Below, one piece after another: positions 6,578-25,121 of a stretch of DNA of 34,056 nt. The stretch is from IMG/VR virus record IMGVR_UViG_3300006810_000178, positions 1 to 34,056 of that record, one strand, 5' to 3'. The DNA comes from a virus. The notes below the pieces were generated by a model. It searched no databases. It had not been told where the DNA came from and saw nothing but the letters and a program-made list of their open reading frames with translations. The position numbers were made by a program, and so were the translations under genes. Each line of letters begins with the position of its first letter. Within the stretch, counting starts at the first letter, position 1.

Positions 6578-6595
6578 ATACGAAGTTACCTTGGT

Positions 6596-6835
6596 TTACC
6601 AAAAGTCATTTCCTCTTGGATCGTGTTTATCCGGATCATATGGTTCTTCTTTGTCGACAGGATCGGGATCGTTCCTTGATGTGGCGGCATCAATGCGCGC
6701 ATTTGGCCAATCTCTATCATCTGAAGTATCTCCAGGTGTCTGTTCGCTGTTGTCAGTTGATTGTTGTTCTTCAGGTTGTTTTTCAGGTTCTTCAACCAAC
6801 CCATCAGTTCCAGATATATCTGGTGGATTAAACAA
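6596..6835 (-). CDS. small acidic P/D/E-rich ORF, about 79 aa, start uncertain
   Basis: This frame fills the gap between the two large minus-strand genes. It encodes a very acidic sequence (EEPEKQPEEQQ, then DPDPVDKEEPYDPD, ending GNDFW) with A/T-ending codons like its neighbours. There is no ATG: TTG at 6835 is the first usual start, and the frame stays open upstream to 6883, overlapping the end of the 1111-residue gene in the -1 frame relative to it. A competing frame at 6840-6586 has an ATG (MSCLIHQ) but its lysine/asparagine-rich product looks like an out-of-frame shadow. It may be a translationally coupled small protein. Function unknown. Confidence 0.4.
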   Translation of the reverse strand: MFNPPDISGTDGLVEEPEKQPEEQQSTDNSEQTPGDTSDDRDWPNARIDAATSRNDPDPVDKEEPYDPDKHDPRGNDFW

Positions 6836-6852
6836 CTCATAATTGATTTGTT

Positions 6853-9800
6853 CTAATGGTTCTTCTTGATCTTTGAAGGCAATTCAAGCGGTTTTCCTAG
6901 GGTTACAGAAACAAGTTCTTTATGCGTATTTTCACTAATTTCGCCATTTTCGTATTTTTCATTCAAAATTTTAATAATAGCTGAAACGGATGGATTTTCA
7001 ACTAATCCTTTGGAACCTTTCCCTTCAACAATTTCAAATCCAAGGGCTTTTGCTGCATCTCTAAGTTGACCAGCAACACTCGCCCCTTGAGCAATTATTT
7101 TTTTCGCTCCTTCTAGAATAATTCCTTTATCTATTAATTCTTGAAATACTCTACTTGGTTCTACTACACTACCTTGCGCATAGCCTTGTCCGCGCAATCC
7201 CATATGTGTAGTATCTCTTTGTCCTTTATTGTTTAAGCCTTCGGCCTTAAATGTGACAATATTTTCTTTTTTTACGTCATTTGATTCTAGGAATTCCATA
7301 AAATCTTTTGACATTTTGTGACCTTCACGGCCCAATACTACAAAATCAACTCCCTTTGCTTTGGCAGCATTAATATACATTTTTGCTTCTTTTTCGCTGA
7401 AGTGCGGGAGTATAAATACCTTTGTGAAATCTTTTCCACTTTTTTTGATATTTGTTTGTATTAATTCTTCAATTTGTTCTTGCGTTTTAGCTCTTTTTCC
7501 AGTACCAGGTGCGATTTGGACCACCATTGCAAAATTAGGAGAACCTTTGCCTGTAGTTGCTACAGCAGGTTCTTGTAGTTTCATATCTACCATATCTTCG
7601 GCTTGGAATGCCGAAAAGAGTGTAGATTTAGCTTTAGTGTATCCTCTTTCTAAATCTTTAATAAAATCAAATACACTAGCTGGATCTAAGAGTCCTCCTC
7701 CGTATTCTTTAGTTTCAAAATGTAAGTGTGGAGCGGTTATTTCTCCCCATCCATTTTCGTCAAGAAATTTAACAGTGTCATCTAGTGCCCTTTGATATAT
7801 TTCTTGTTTTTTTTCGGTAGTTAATTTTTCTTTTCCAAATGATCTTTCAAATGCATCTAAATATTCACCATACCTTTTTTGCGCTGCTCTTCCAAAATAA
7901 GTTCCACTTCCGGTTACAGTAGAAATTTGATCTCCTTGAGTTACATCATCTCCTACTTTATATGGTTTACCAGTATTTGGGTTTATTATCGGACCACCGG
8001 TGTGTAGGAAACGGTATACGATCCCATCCTTTCCTTTTATCTTAATAACTTTTCCAGCCTTTGGGGAAACACTACTTGAAGCTTGAATTATTTTTCCGTT
8101 AACTGGTGCAAAAATAGGCGCATTTTGACCAATAAGTAACCTATTAGTTACTGGGTCAATTGCATACATATCAACTCCATAGTGTTTGCGGGTTCCGCCG
8201 GTCGCTGTTCGCCTAATATCAAAAGCTCCGGAAGTAATACCTTGAACATTTCCTTTTGGTGTTATATATGATAATGCTCCAGTTATTGGCGTAATTCTTC
8301 CAAATTTATCGACATTAAGTTGAGCCCCTCCGGGCTTTCCATAAGGATAAAACTTTGTACCAACAACCTTTTGAGAGGTTTCGGTAACTCCTGTTTTTTT
8401 GGTTTGTTCAAATAATGATAAAACCGGTTGTGTTTTTTTCGTTGAAGGTATTTGTTGGCTTTGTTGCGTAGGCGATGTGATTGTAGAGGAAACTTCACCA
8501 TTTTCCGCAATCCATTTTTGATAAGCAGCATAAGCTTTTTTGGTTTTTTCGAGCCAAGCTTGTTCTTCTCTAACTATACCAGCTCCATGTATATTAGAAT
8601 ATTCTGATCTATCTTTTCTACTCCAAGTTTCTTTCGAGTTATACACTTTACCAGTTCCGGTAATAGTTTGGCTTCTTGCTGCACTTGCTGCAACAGATCC
8701 AGAAGAGTTTTGAGTTCCGAAATTACTATAATTTGAACCAGCTAATACTTGTTCTACAATTTTATCCATTTGGGCTTGTAACGCAGGATCGCCCATTAAT
8801 TTATTATAATTTTGATTAAACTTTCCACCCGAGTGAAATGGAGCGTAATAGCTACTATTTCCGCTTCCCATTGCATCCATTAACGAACTATAAGTTCCAG
8901 GGTGAGCATTAACCCTATTCATTAAAGTTTCTATTAATCCCATTTGGGTTTCTTTATCTTTATATCCCACTTCTGATAAAGTCAATGCCTGCAATCTTTT
9001 AAGAACTTTGGGATCTTTAAGTTCTTCTCTAAATCTATCTCTTTTGAATGGATCTCGAATCTCGGCCGGCATTTGATTTGGTTGAATTGTATTTGTTGTT
9101 TGTGCGGCTGGTGTTGTTGGGGGAGCTTGAGAAGAAGTTGGTTGATTCGGATGTTCAGTATTGTATCTATTTATAAAACTTTTTATAACAGCTTCGCCAC
9201 TATTCTGTAATACGAACTGTAGCGTAGGGTCGGATGATGCCTCAGTTAACAAACCAGGGGGCCAGTTATAACCTGTTGGTAGACCTAAATTCTTAGCAAG
9301 TTGCTCGATATTTTGTGCGGCTGGTGTTGTTAGAGAAGTTTGAGAAGGAGACTGAGGAGTCTGCGTTATAGGCATATCGCCGCTAGATCCAAATCTTTCT
9401 TGTATTTCTTTTAACACATTACTGGTAAAATCAGCTGACCCTGAAGATACAGAAGAATCAGAATTTTCTGAAACATTACTGGGTGAAAATTGTTGTAAAA
9501 CATTAACAGCGGCGTCTAAAGCTTGTCCAGCTGGACCAGCCTTTGGAATAAGACCATTAGTAGATGTATGCGCGTTTTTTGTATTTGATAAAGTGGCCCT
9601 ACTAGCCCCCGCAGCGTTTGCAGCAAGAGCGGCGGCTGCTAAACCTGCAAATATAGGCTTTTTTAACATTGATCCAAACATACCACCAATATCCCCCCCT
9701 GTTGCAGTAGGTTGATGGAAAAGTTGACTTCCTCCATACCCAATTCCAGAAGTTTGGGTATATGTTGGTGAAGCTGAAGTCATCGACTTCATATATTTAT

Positions 9801-10188
9801 TGATAGCAGACAGACTGGTATTTAATGAAGAAGCAGAATCCGATGCTAATGTTGATGATGATACGTTTGGAGAGGCACCGGCGCTTGGTCCTTTTGGTGG
9901 TGTCGGCCTTCCGTAACTAGACATATTCCCATAGGATTTAAACGATGATCTAGATTGTTCGAGGAATGAATTTAGGGTTTTTAACGATTGAGATATTTCT
10001 TTTTGTAACCGTATATTTTGTTGAGTTAAAGAATTATTGGTTTTAATACCACCCAAGGTTTGTATATTGTTACGTTCTATGGCATTGATTTGGGAATCAA
10101 TATTAAGATCATCGTTTTGTGAATTAGGCATAAATTGACCTAAATCTCCACCAATACCTTTTTCTGAAGCCGCTTCTCTGAAATTCAA
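6853..10188 (-). CDS. tape-measure/hub candidate with SleB-like and M23 peptidase domains, 1111 aa
   Basis: Residues 1-100 are helical; 175-195 form an alanine-rich hydrophobic segment that could be a membrane helix. Residues 200-390 are low complexity. Residues about 395-480 resemble a SleB-type cell wall hydrolase: LTLSEVGY with E406 as likely catalytic acid, followed by the helix ending in NRV (425-427). Residues about 660-840 form an M23 (LytM) zinc peptidase: H669xxxD673, H729, and HLHFE with H821/H823, so all expected ligands are present; about 90 residues are inserted before the last motif. The remaining 870-1111 is an uncharacterised alpha/beta region. It starts 15 bases after the frameshift extension of gp26, the usual place of a tape measure gene behind its chaperones. 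Tape measure proteins often carry such hydrolases to open peptidoglycan during DNA entry. A large hub protein is the main alternative. Confidence 0.85.
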   Translation of the reverse strand: MNFREAASEKGIGGDLGQFMPNSQNDDLNIDSQINAIERNNIQTLGGIKTNNSLTQQNIRLQKEISQSLKTLNSFLEQSRSSFKSYGNMSSYGRPTPPKGPSAGASPNVSSSTLASDSASSLNTSLSAINKYMKSMTSASPTYTQTSGIGYGGSQLFHQPTATGGDIGGMFGSMLKKPIFAGLAAAALAANAAGASRATLSNTKNAHTSTNGLIPKAGPAGQALDAAVNVLQQFSPSNVSENSDSSVSSGSADFTSNVLKEIQERFGSSGDMPITQTPQSPSQTSLTTPAAQNIEQLAKNLGLPTGYNWPPGLLTEASSDPTLQFVLQNSGEAVIKSFINRYNTEHPNQPTSSQAPPTTPAAQTTNTIQPNQMPAEIRDPFKRDRFREELKDPKVLKRLQALTLSEVGYKDKETQMGLIETLMNRVNAHPGTYSSLMDAMGSGNSSYYAPFHSGGKFNQNYNKLMGDPALQAQMDKIVEQVLAGSNYSNFGTQNSSGSVAASAARSQTITGTGKVYNSKETWSRKDRSEYSNIHGAGIVREEQAWLEKTKKAYAAYQKWIAENGEVSSTITSPTQQSQQIPSTKKTQPVLSLFEQTKKTGVTETSQKVVGTKFYPYGKPGGAQLNVDKFGRITPITGALSYITPKGNVQGITSGAFDIRRTATGGTRKHYGVDMYAIDPVTNRLLIGQNAPIFAPVNGKIIQASSSVSPKAGKVIKIKGKDGIVYRFLHTGGPIINPNTGKPYKVGDDVTQGDQISTVTGSGTYFGRAAQKRYGEYLDAFERSFGKEKLTTEKKQEIYQRALDDTVKFLDENGWGEITAPHLHFETKEYGGGLLDPASVFDFIKDLERGYTKAKSTLFSAFQAEDMVDMKLQEPAVATTGKGSPNFAMVVQIAPGTGKRAKTQEQIEELIQTNIKKSGKDFTKVFILPHFSEKEAKMYINAAKAKGVDFVVLGREGHKMSKDFMEFLESNDVKKENIVTFKAEGLNNKGQRDTTHMGLRGQGYAQGSVVEPSRVFQELIDKGIILEGAKKIIAQGASVAGQLRDAAKALGFEIVEGKGSKGLVENPSVSAIIKILNEKYENGEISENTHKELVSVTLGKPLELPSKIKKNH

Positions 10189-10203: not shown

Positions 10204-10377
10204 TTAATTTGATGATTTCTTTTCAATAAATGATTTTAACAATTCTACATAAATATCCCGTTCAAATGGGACCATATTCTCTAATTCACTTATTGAATAT
10301 TTATGATGCTGAGCCATTGCAAAATTTACTTTAAAGTAATTTTCCAAGTTATTATGACTCAGCGCCAAGAGAAAAAA
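10204..10377 (-). CDS. frameshift extension of gp26 (tail chaperone T-like segment)
   Basis: The -1 frame relative to gp26 stays open from the slippery site to TAA at 10206-10204 and encodes 55 residues after the shift, beginning LLALSHNNLENYFKVNFAMA and continuing QHHKYSISELENMVPFERDI. The sequence looks like a real domain: aromatic and charged residues in a helical pattern with ELENMVPFERDIYVELL. The product with gp26 would be 286 residues. An ATG at 10317 could start a 37-residue protein on its own, but coding-like sequence upstream of it in the same frame favours the frameshift. In many tailed phages a G/GT pair made this way chaperones the tape measure protein, whose candidate gene follows directly. 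Confidence 0.7.
   Translation of the reverse strand, partial: FFLLALSHNNLENYFKVNFAMAQHHKYSISELENMVPFERDIYVELLKSFIEKKSSN
10308..10377 (-). promoter_or_regulatory. -1 ribosomal frameshift signal at the end of gp26
   Basis: On the minus strand, T TTT TTC (10377-10371) in the gp26 frame is a canonical X XXY YYZ heptamer. After a 7-base spacer, GCTGAGTCAT (10363-10354) pairs with ATGGCTCAGC (10317-10308) in a 10-bp stem with one G-U pair. The 36-base loop contains TTACTTTAAAGTAA, itself self-complementary. The gp26 stop (10361-10359) lies inside the stem. Slip site, spacer and stem all match known stimulators of -1 frameshifting. Confidence 0.75.
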
Positions 10378-11063
10378 TCGTTTAGTGACCTAAGTACGAT
10401 TTTCTTATCAATACCAGATGAATCTGTGTAAAACAATTCGTGCTTCATAGTGGGCGAATTTGATAGAAATTCCTGAACCTTTGAGAAAGTTTTTAGATCC
10501 AATGCTTCGAGAAAATCTCCAATTTCTTCTGGTGATAAATCTTCAGAATCATAGACCTCATCTCCATTATAAATTTGTTTTACACAACGAATAATAAGTT
10601 CAAACATATGTTCTTTTTCAATATCCAAAAATGTATCATCACTATAAAGGGCTGCTGATGGGTATTTCATTATAAATCCGGAATTATCATCTATTTTAAT
10701 ATTTGGATCGTTTTGTTTCGGGAAAACAACTTTTATCGTATCAAGATCTATTTCAAAATCATATAATTGCCCGTCATCTACATCTCGGAATGAAATATTA
10801 ACAATATTATCAACCGAAAACGATCTAATTTTCAAAAATGTATATTCCAAATCAAAGATAGTCAATTCGTCTGTATCTAATTCATCAAGGCAGCAATTCG
10901 TGACAATTTGTTTAATAGCAACTAATATATCAGTTGGCTCTTCACTTTCTTTTGCAATTAACAGAAGTTTTTCTTCTTTAACTAAGAAAGGTCGAAATTT
11001 AAATTCTTTATCCATAGATGGAATTTTTATAGTATGAATAGGGTGTTCAATTTTTGGTAACAT
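10359..11063 (-). CDS. 26: gp26-like baseplate hub/tail chaperone protein
   Basis: T4 gp26 (208 aa) is a baseplate hub assembly factor. This 234-residue protein has the family's N-terminal pattern IKIPSMDKEFKFRPFLVKEEKLLLIAKESE, then a beta-rich middle with FRDVDDGQLYDFEIDLDTIKV and a helical end with DLSPEEIGDFLEALDLKTFSKVQEFL. The last codons before the stop contain the slippery T-run, so a fraction of ribosomes should read on into the 55-residue extension. The gene is preceded by TGGAGTAATT as ribosome site. Its position ahead of a tape-measure-like gene supports a chaperone role, equivalent to gpG of lambda-like phages; that equivalence is inferred. Confidence 0.85.
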   Translation of the reverse strand: MLPKIEHPIHTIKIPSMDKEFKFRPFLVKEEKLLLIAKESEEPTDILVAIKQIVTNCCLDELDTDELTIFDLEYTFLKIRSFSVDNIVNISFRDVDDGQLYDFEIDLDTIKVVFPKQNDPNIKIDDNSGFIMKYPSAALYSDDTFLDIEKEHMFELIIRCVKQIYNGDEVYDSEDLSPEEIGDFLEALDLKTFSKVQEFLSNSPTMKHELFYTDSSGIDKKIVLRSLNDFFSWR

Positions 11064-23560: not shown

Positions 23561-24244
23561 ATGGGTAAAATCCTTCCAGCGTATAAAAAAGCATTATACG
23601 AAGAAATCTTTGATAATATTCAAAGTAATACATCGGCGTATTATGCTTATGGGTCGCATCCGATTGAATATCCTAGTTCTGTTCCTCAGGTTGCAAATAA
23701 TGCATACGAGACTAATTTTGAACAAAATTGGTATATGCTTTTTGGCAAAAAAGTACAACCTGGTGATATTTCTCCGGTTGTGAAGAAAAACATATGGACA
23801 ACAGGAACTGTATACGAAAAATATGACAGCACTTCGAATACGCTGGAAGCGAACAATAACTTTTATGTTATTTGCGACCCATTAATTGATGGTGGTCAAT
23901 ACCACGTTTATAAATGTATTGACAATTCTAATGGAGCAGTTTCTACTTCCAATCCATCTTTGATCGGGCTACCAACACAAAAGGCAACCTTCGAGACAAG
24001 TGATGGATATAAGTGGAAATACCTCACATCAGTTTCATCTTTGAATTATGATAAATTCGAATCTGATGATTATGCTCCAATCAATTCCAATGCCTCTATC
24101 GTGGCAACTGCTGCTGAATATTCAGGCGTTGATGTGGTTGTTATTTCTAACAGCGGTAATGGATATACATCGTCAACTAATGGTATCGTATCATCTGTAC
24201 AAAATACCACTGTTATTCAGATTCAAAATGATGCTTCGTCCTGA
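23561..24244 (+). CDS. 8: gp8 baseplate wedge protein, N-terminal part before a frameshift
   Basis: gp8 is a wedge component in all T4-like phages. This frame holds the family N-terminal half: MGKILPAYKKALYEEIFDNI, FEQNWYMLFGKKVQPGDISP, then GGQYHVYKCIDNSNGAVSTS and FETSDGYKWKYLTSVSS. At TGA (24242-24244) the frame ends although the fold is incomplete. The homologous sequence continues one base later in the +1 frame (CCT GAT AAC at 24240 onward, PDNFYVNN). So the gene is split by one extra base, by a genuine +1 frameshift, or into two chains. Confidence 0.85.
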   Translation: MGKILPAYKKALYEEIFDNIQSNTSAYYAYGSHPIEYPSSVPQVANNAYETNFEQNWYMLFGKKVQPGDISPVVKKNIWTTGTVYEKYDSTSNTLEANNNFYVICDPLIDGGQYHVYKCIDNSNGAVSTSNPSLIGLPTQKATFETSDGYKWKYLTSVSSLNYDKFESDDYAPINSNASIVATAAEYSGVDVVVISNSGNGYTSSTNGIVSSVQNTTVIQIQNDASS

Positions 24245-25121
24245 TAACTTTTATGTCAATAATGCAATTTATGTGTACAATACAATTGAAAGCACATCAC
24301 AACTTCGTTTAATCACGGATTATGTTGTTAATGCCACTGGTAGATTTGTTTACGTAAATACCGCAATGGATATTTCAAAAATCACACCAGGTATTACAGA
24401 ATATTTGATCAGCCCTGCTGTTGTATTTAATACTGATGGCGACTCTAATCCTTCGGCTTATTGTTTGGTGAATGATTACACTACCAAGATTAGCGAAATT
24501 GTATTGCTTGATTCGGGTTCAAATATTTCCTGGGCTAATGTTGAAATTCAATCACAATATGGTTCTGGTGCTAATGTTTATGCCATTGTTCCTCCTCCGG
24601 GTGGTCATGGTTATGATCCAGCGATTGAATTAAATATGCAAGGTATAGCATTTAATATTACATTCGCGAACACCGAACTTGACATTATCCCAACAGCAAA
24701 TACTTTGTATAATAAAATTGGTATTGTTAAAAATCCAAAATATGCAGTATCAAATACTGCCCTGGGAACAGTCACCCCTGGAGATAGATTTTATGAACGT
24801 TCTTTTAATAATTTATTAAAGGCTTCCGTTTCGCCAGCTTATACTTTTACTGCAGGTGATATTGTAACTGGTGCAACAAGTAATTCATTGGCCACAGTTG
24901 TATTTTCAAATTCCAGTGTTGTTCACTTATCTGGTGATAAGACTTTTGTTAATGGAGAATACCTGGCAAATACTGGTGGATACAATGTCACTACTATAAA
25001 TATCTCTACAGTTGGTGATATATACACCAAAGAACTACAACCAATGTACGTCGATAATATAAATAACATAAATCGTAAAGACGATCAAACTGAAACTTTT
25101 AAGTTGACTATCGAAATTTAA
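24228..25121 (+). CDS. 8: gp8 baseplate wedge protein, C-terminal part after the frameshift
   Basis: From about 24240 this frame continues gp8: PDNFYVNNAIYVYNTIESTS, PPPGGHGYDPAIELNMQGIA, NTLYNKIGIVKNPKYAV and the end FKLTIEI. GGHGxDP with RQIGI/KIGIVKNP-like sequence is characteristic of gp8 family C-terminal domains. Residues encoded before 24228 in this frame do not look like protein. Tandem ATGs at 24228 and 24231 would allow reinitiation close to the upstream stop at 24244, giving a separate chain of about 297 residues, although no ribosome site is visible. Joined with the first part the product would be about 520 residues. Confidence 0.8.
   Translation: MMLRPDNFYVNNAIYVYNTIESTSQLRLITDYVVNATGRFVYVNTAMDISKITPGITEYLISPAVVFNTDGDSNPSAYCLVNDYTTKISEIVLLDSGSNISWANVEIQSQYGSGANVYAIVPPPGGHGYDPAIELNMQGIAFNITFANTELDIIPTANTLYNKIGIVKNPKYAVSNTALGTVTPGDRFYERSFNNLLKASVSPAYTFTAGDIVTGATSNSLATVVFSNSSVVHLSGDKTFVNGEYLANTGGYNVTTINISTVGDIYTKELQPMYVDNINNINRKDDQTETFKLTIEI

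Follow-up and report, generated by a model that had tools for sequence, protein, structure and literature searches.

The window (the whole 34,056-nucleotide stretch of viral DNA that was analyzed), which belongs to a marine T4-like phage, encodes on its minus strand a homolog of T4 gp26, located between a tail tube-like gene upstream and a 1111-aa ORF downstream that is called tape measure by its position (Table 1). The gp26 sequence matches positions 7 to 233 of the 282 positions of the phrog_150 profile. The M23 peptidase domain is the only domain match of the 1111-aa ORF itself, and its designation as “tape-measure-like” rests on its place in the gene order and on the partial match of its counterpart in phage S-PM2 to the tape-measure family phrog_9570 (5.3e-21).

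The last codons of gp26 are GAT TTT TTC TCT TGG CGC TGA, which puts the heptamer T TTT TTC in phase with the gene, three codons before its stop. The earlier note had described this heptamer, a 7-base spacer, and a 10-bp stem enclosing the gp26 stop codon, followed by an extension of 55 residues that ends 15 bases before the next gene; on the minus strand, every one of these elements is confirmed to the base. The minimum-free-energy fold (−21.7 kcal/mol; z −3.9) includes the stem, which closes a 36-nt loop, and none of 200 dinucleotide shuffles folded as well. A backward slip of one base would join 231 residues of gp26 to the 55 residues of the −1 frame, giving a predicted product of 286 aa; the stop codon of the extension occupies 10206-10204, and exactly 15 bases separate it from the 1111-aa ORF, which starts with TTG at 10188. 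The window's genes (10,552 codons) contain six in-frame T TTT TTN sequences, and of these, only that in gp26 is 12 codons or fewer from the end of a gene. Since the junction is identical in three sister contigs (in which gp26 is 100% identical), it is not an assembly error.

Table 1. Coordinates of the gp26 locus and of the elements of the predicted −1 frameshift signal in the window
Feature	Position	Strand	Remarks
Tail tube-like gene, 209 aa	11106..11735	−	Just upstream of gp26; phrog_45, 9.1e-28
gp26 ORF, 234 aa, putative short form (TAC-N)	10359..11063	−	PF12322 T4_baseplate, 1.2e-50; phrog_150, 2.8e-55
Slippery heptamer T TTT TTC	10371..10377	−	In gp26 frame; kept as T TTT TTN in 67/69 lineages
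Spacer, 7 nt	10364..10370	−	
5' arm of 10-bp stem	10354..10363	−	Holds gp26 stop; compensatory changes in clade alignment
gp26 stop codon TGA	10359..10361	−	Predicted to be bypassed by the −1 shift
3' arm of stem	10308..10317	−	Includes the first downstream in-frame ATG (10317-10315)
−1-frame extension, 55 codons + stop	10204..10371	−	Putative TAC-C / gp51-type domain
1111-aa ORF, TTG start (10188)	6853..10188	−	Tape measure gene position; M23 peptidase PF01551, 1.4e-06

Several other features of these genomes deserve mention. The window's plus strand carries at 23561-25121 a broken gene for a structural protein, with a 227-aa ORF that ends near 24244 and continues in another frame; a sister contig with 100% identical sequence in this region has a frame open for 443 codons, so this break, unlike the gp26 junction, is peculiar to the window (an error or a mutation). 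Two overlapping ORFs of 84 and 79 aa lie in different frames at 6586-6840 of the minus strand, between the 1111-aa ORF and a 702-aa ORF, and the 79-aa product looks acidic and Pro-rich, as do its neighbors. A 144-aa ORF at 2130-2564 of the plus strand, with an apparent signal peptide and outer-membrane-protein-like features, is unusual beside phage structural genes and may be host derived. In S-PM2, the large protein encoded after gp51 (L002:4880-8380) has a phage tail lysozyme domain (7e-25) and, in its N-terminal part, an ADP-ribosyltransferase-like match (PF01129, 1.3e-05).

Conservation of the junction among gp26 relatives

Relatives of gp26 were gathered from viral contigs and phage records, with the slippery site playing no part in their selection, and were collapsed to 69 lineages sharing less than 70% identity. 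In 67 of these lineages, an in-frame T TTT TTN was found 0 to 8 codons ahead of the gp26 stop; in all 67, the −1 frame stays open past the heptamer and encodes the same domain. The heptamer is TTTTTTC in 38 of them, TTTTTTT in 28, and TTTTTTG in a single one. The residue encoded before the Phe-Phe pair varies (Asp in 41 lineages, Ser in 18, Asn in 5, and Ala in 3), but the third base of its codon is always T, and the first Phe codon is TTT in every lineage. Given the genes' own codon usage and with lineages taken as independent, the log10 P values for the fixed T and the fixed TTT are about −12 and −11, respectively; the independence is only approximate and both values are thereby overstated, but there is little doubt that the heptamer is conserved beyond chance. 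The pattern extends outside the marine clades, to Rhizobium phage RL2RES (which has TTTTTTG), Vibrio phages D490 and PVA23, and Aeromonas phages AS-zj and PX29. The window site has the in-phase X XXY YYZ heptamer of the canonical bacterial −1 site. The expectation voiced in the earlier note, that slippery site, stem, and extension would recur in relatives, was borne out: the site is found in 67 of the 69 lineages, a hairpin in most of them, and the extension is conserved from its first residues on.

In the Ackermannviridae-like phages Det7, Maynard, phiMAM1, Vibrio D503, and SUMAE, too, gp26 is followed by a C domain that is read in the −1 frame. None of these five has an X XXY YYZ heptamer, and all of them end in NTT TTC NNN stop; a C domain in the −1 frame without such a heptamer counts against the frameshift reading. 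It is possible that these phages use a reduced TTTTC slip site or some other route.

The extension itself has a match (1.4e-25) to phrog_634, “baseplate hub assembly catalyst”, which T4 gp51 matches too, and another (4.8e-07) to the C-terminal positions 229 to 277 of phrog_150. It aligns to residues 200 to 244 of T4 gp51 and gives no alignment with T4 gp26; searched alone against Pfam, it has no match. Its conservation follows the pattern FFxxxLSHxxLxNYY...QHHKYS..EIENMxPxERDIYV, and the structure predicted for it alone consists of two main helices, with modest confidence (pLDDT 75.6).

The family to which the extension belongs is annotated as gp51 in cyanophages, whose records list a separate gp51 gene. 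The extension could accordingly be read as a small gene with its own start, at which ribosomes that have terminated on gp26 would begin again, through reinitiation or translational coupling. The records of S-PM2, S-ShM2, Rhizobium phage RL2RES, and Vibrio phage D490 indeed annotate a separate ORF that begins at the gp26 stop or just behind it. Yet no conserved start codon for the extension was found across the 67 lineages: 14 of them have no ATG within the first 30 extension codons, and in the remainder the first ATG is anywhere from codon 1 to codon 19. In the window, the first ATG (10317) lies 18 codons into the extension, within the 3' arm of the stem; a start there would remove the LSHxxLxNYY part, which is the conserved first third of the domain. 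The earlier note had singled out expression from this ATG alone as the outcome that would overturn its proposal; nothing in the comparison ties the extension to it. A separate gene would also leave unexplained the fixation of T TTT TTY at synonymous positions and a −1 frame that runs open through the gp26 stop codon. This explanation appears quite improbable. In marine T4-like phages, the short ORF annotated as “gp51” or “baseplate hub assembly catalyst” is very probably the C-terminal part of a frameshifted tail chaperone rather than a free protein.

RNA structure downstream of the slippery site

Over the 66 nt that follow the heptamer, folding is stronger than expected from synonymous recoding (mean z of −2.88 in 65 lineages) and stronger than in two control stretches (mean z of −0.34 and −0.64; p for the difference about 1e-9 or less). 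Most lineages have a downstream hairpin, whose sequence and register differ among them. For the clade of the window, the stem was evaluated in a gap-free alignment of 26 lineages, in which 82.8% of the cells are paired, compared to at most 50% when the arms are slid by 1 to 3 columns. Two-sided changes are seen at 4 of the 13 pairs (C-G to A-U, A-U to C-G, G-C to A-U, and C-G to U-A), the covariation score was matched by none of 500 shuffles, and RNAalifold independently recovers the same stem core. Most sequences of the clade do not pair at columns 5/66 and 17/54, so that the conserved part is the stem core and not the full 10 bp of the window. A structure 5 to 9 nt downstream, a feature of canonical −1 sites, is therefore present and covarying, and its role is predicted to be stimulatory.

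These data also bear on the possibility that RNA polymerase slips on the T run, producing a fraction of mRNA in which the long form is encoded in one frame. A run of 6 to 7 T residues is present in every case, which would suit such a mechanism, although runs of 6 are short for polymerase slippage. For polymerase slippage, the phase of the run would not matter and no hairpin with compensatory changes would be required behind it, whereas the majority of lineages outside the window clade have precisely TTTTTTC, set in the X XXY YYZ phase; the probability of this explanation seems marginally lower still than that of a separate gene. Chance resemblance of an AT-rich gene end to a slippery site, followed by a spurious ORF, might be suggested by the six in-frame T TTT TTN sequences of the window, but it is refuted by the conservation in 67 of the 69 lineages and is also hard to reconcile with a covarying stem and with a conserved domain found within T4 gp51; its probability is negligible.

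In many lineages outside the window clade, a GAGGG motif resembling a Shine-Dalgarno sequence lies approximately 10 nt upstream of the heptamer (mean −5.8 kcal/mol). Its role as an upstream stimulator is held to be tentative, because the same bases encode conserved residues. A search for an upstream Shine-Dalgarno-like stimulator in the window clade gave a mean of −1.9 kcal/mol, no better than controls. A possibility, somewhat less likely than not, is that lineages of one homologous gene pair have kept the slippery site constant while swapping the stimulators, with a compact-hairpin design in some and a long-range-stem design in others. Cyanophage-type lineages would have a compact hairpin directly after the site, often combined with the upstream GAGGG, and the window's uncultured clade would lack that motif and have a long-range stem that closes a 36-nt loop and includes the stop codon on its 5' side. 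If so, these phages would provide a natural series of frameshift-stimulator turnover at constant output. With its 67 lineages, the comparative set could be used to ask which elements of the signal determine the ratio between short and long form.

A predicted two-form chaperone and its relation to T4 gp26 and gp51

The AlphaFold model of the window's gp26 has a pLDDT of 93. When the model was compared with the PDB, the three best matches, over residues 1 to 94, were 3FGX, 2OB9 (the tail assembly chaperone, TAC, of HK97), and 3KLU (YqbN, a prophage chaperone of the XkdN kind), with Z scores of 7.1 to 7.8, followed by the next chain at 2.6. A structural Z score just under 8 is moderate, and the Foldseek E value for the HK97 TAC was 1.1, though this protein ranked first. 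The compact 2OB9 (107 residues) is matched by residues 1 to 84 only of the 234-aa gp26. An hmmsearch of the gp26 profile against the PDB sequences gave no match at E ≤ 1, and the TAC relationship was found by structure comparison alone. Residues 1 to 86 of gp26 thus appear to adopt a TAC-like fold, judged from a model with a moderate comparison score.

Both parts of the window's gene have homologs in T4, whose gp26 and gp51 belong to the same families (PF12322, phrog_150, and phrog_634): the N domain corresponds to gp26 and the extension to the C-terminal domain of gp51. T4 carries two phrog_150 genes, with gp26 consisting of the N part alone and gp51 of the N and C parts. In 11 other records, there is a single N copy and the C domain occupies a separate open frame directly after it; the last two of these records are Ackermannviridae-like, with marginal C-domain scores. 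Six phage records of 157 to 253 kb with the separate C frame likewise have a single N copy. A 59-kb sister contig, which is a fragment, has one N-domain copy and the −1-frame C domain, compared to the two N copies of T4. Several groups of T4-like phages reportedly retain frameshifting, while T4 relies on genes 26 and 51.

The signal and its conservation can be read from the sequences directly, as can the compensatory changes in the stem, the homology to T4 gp26 and gp51, and the TAC-like fold predicted for gp26 residues 1 to 86. On these grounds, the gene encodes, with high probability, a tail assembly chaperone in two forms, the longer one made by a −1 slip on T TTT TTC. A short form and a longer form that share their N-terminal part are recognizable at the sequence level, and the best reading of gp26 and gp26-gp51 is a TAC-N/TAC-NC pair of the kind known from lambda G/GT, with a −1 shift giving rise to the longer member. 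What follows on the slip itself, how often it happens, and what the two forms do is inferred. The 234-aa short form (TAC-N, the equivalent of lambda gpG) would come from the majority of ribosomes, which terminate at 10361-10359. On T TTT TTC, a minority aided by the stem 7 nt downstream would move back by one base, and their reading of the −1 frame would yield the 286-aa form with the 55-residue gp51-type domain (TAC-NC, the equivalent of gpGT). By analogy with lambda, the short form would coat the tape measure protein, the long form would recruit tail tube subunits, and both would leave before the tail is completed.

Such a reading corrects the widespread gp51 annotation in marine T4-like phages. 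It also supports regarding T4 gp26 and gp51, described for decades as hub assembly chaperones, as chaperones of the tape measure, with T4 being the exception in which the long form comes from a second gene.

Comparison with known systems

Frameshifting of the −1 type in T4-like phages was described in 2022, and the case of the window is largely anticipated by that work: Vladimirov, Gautam, and Davidson (Virology 566:9-15, as cited in PMC10885494 and PMC12846349) identified the TAC genes of T4-like phages, which share with the window the gp26 family and the same two-form scheme. In the PRFect paper (PMC10885494), this study is the reference for T4-like phages that have both a short gene and a longer fusion gene; in PMC12846349, it is the reference for T4-like TAC-N genes with poly-T slippery sequences. 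Three points were not found stated in the literature consulted: how widely the pattern is conserved among uncultured marine clades, the support for the stem from compensatory changes, and the differing stimulator designs. The unification of gp26 with the G/GT system proposed in the earlier note was right, if largely anticipated. T4 differs from the window in having a second, full-length gene (gp51, 249 aa) for the long form, which involves no shift.

The pairs of the lambda G/GT, siphovirus, and P2 type (Xu, Hendrix, and Duda 2004, as cited in PMC8785237) resemble the window's gene in combining a short form with a −1-shifted long form, which is predicted for the window, and in being encoded just before the tape measure gene, a putative one in the window. 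The window differs in its T TTT TTY heptamer, and the likeness considered here is one of layout. The TAC locus of Vandenendeviridae and Andersonviridae, represented by phage Adele, is described as having a −1 shift motif GTTTTT (PMC12846349); it has in common with the window, where the shift is predicted and the tape measure gene putative, a conserved −1 shift before the tape measure gene and a poly-T motif, the latter differing from the window's T TTT TTC.
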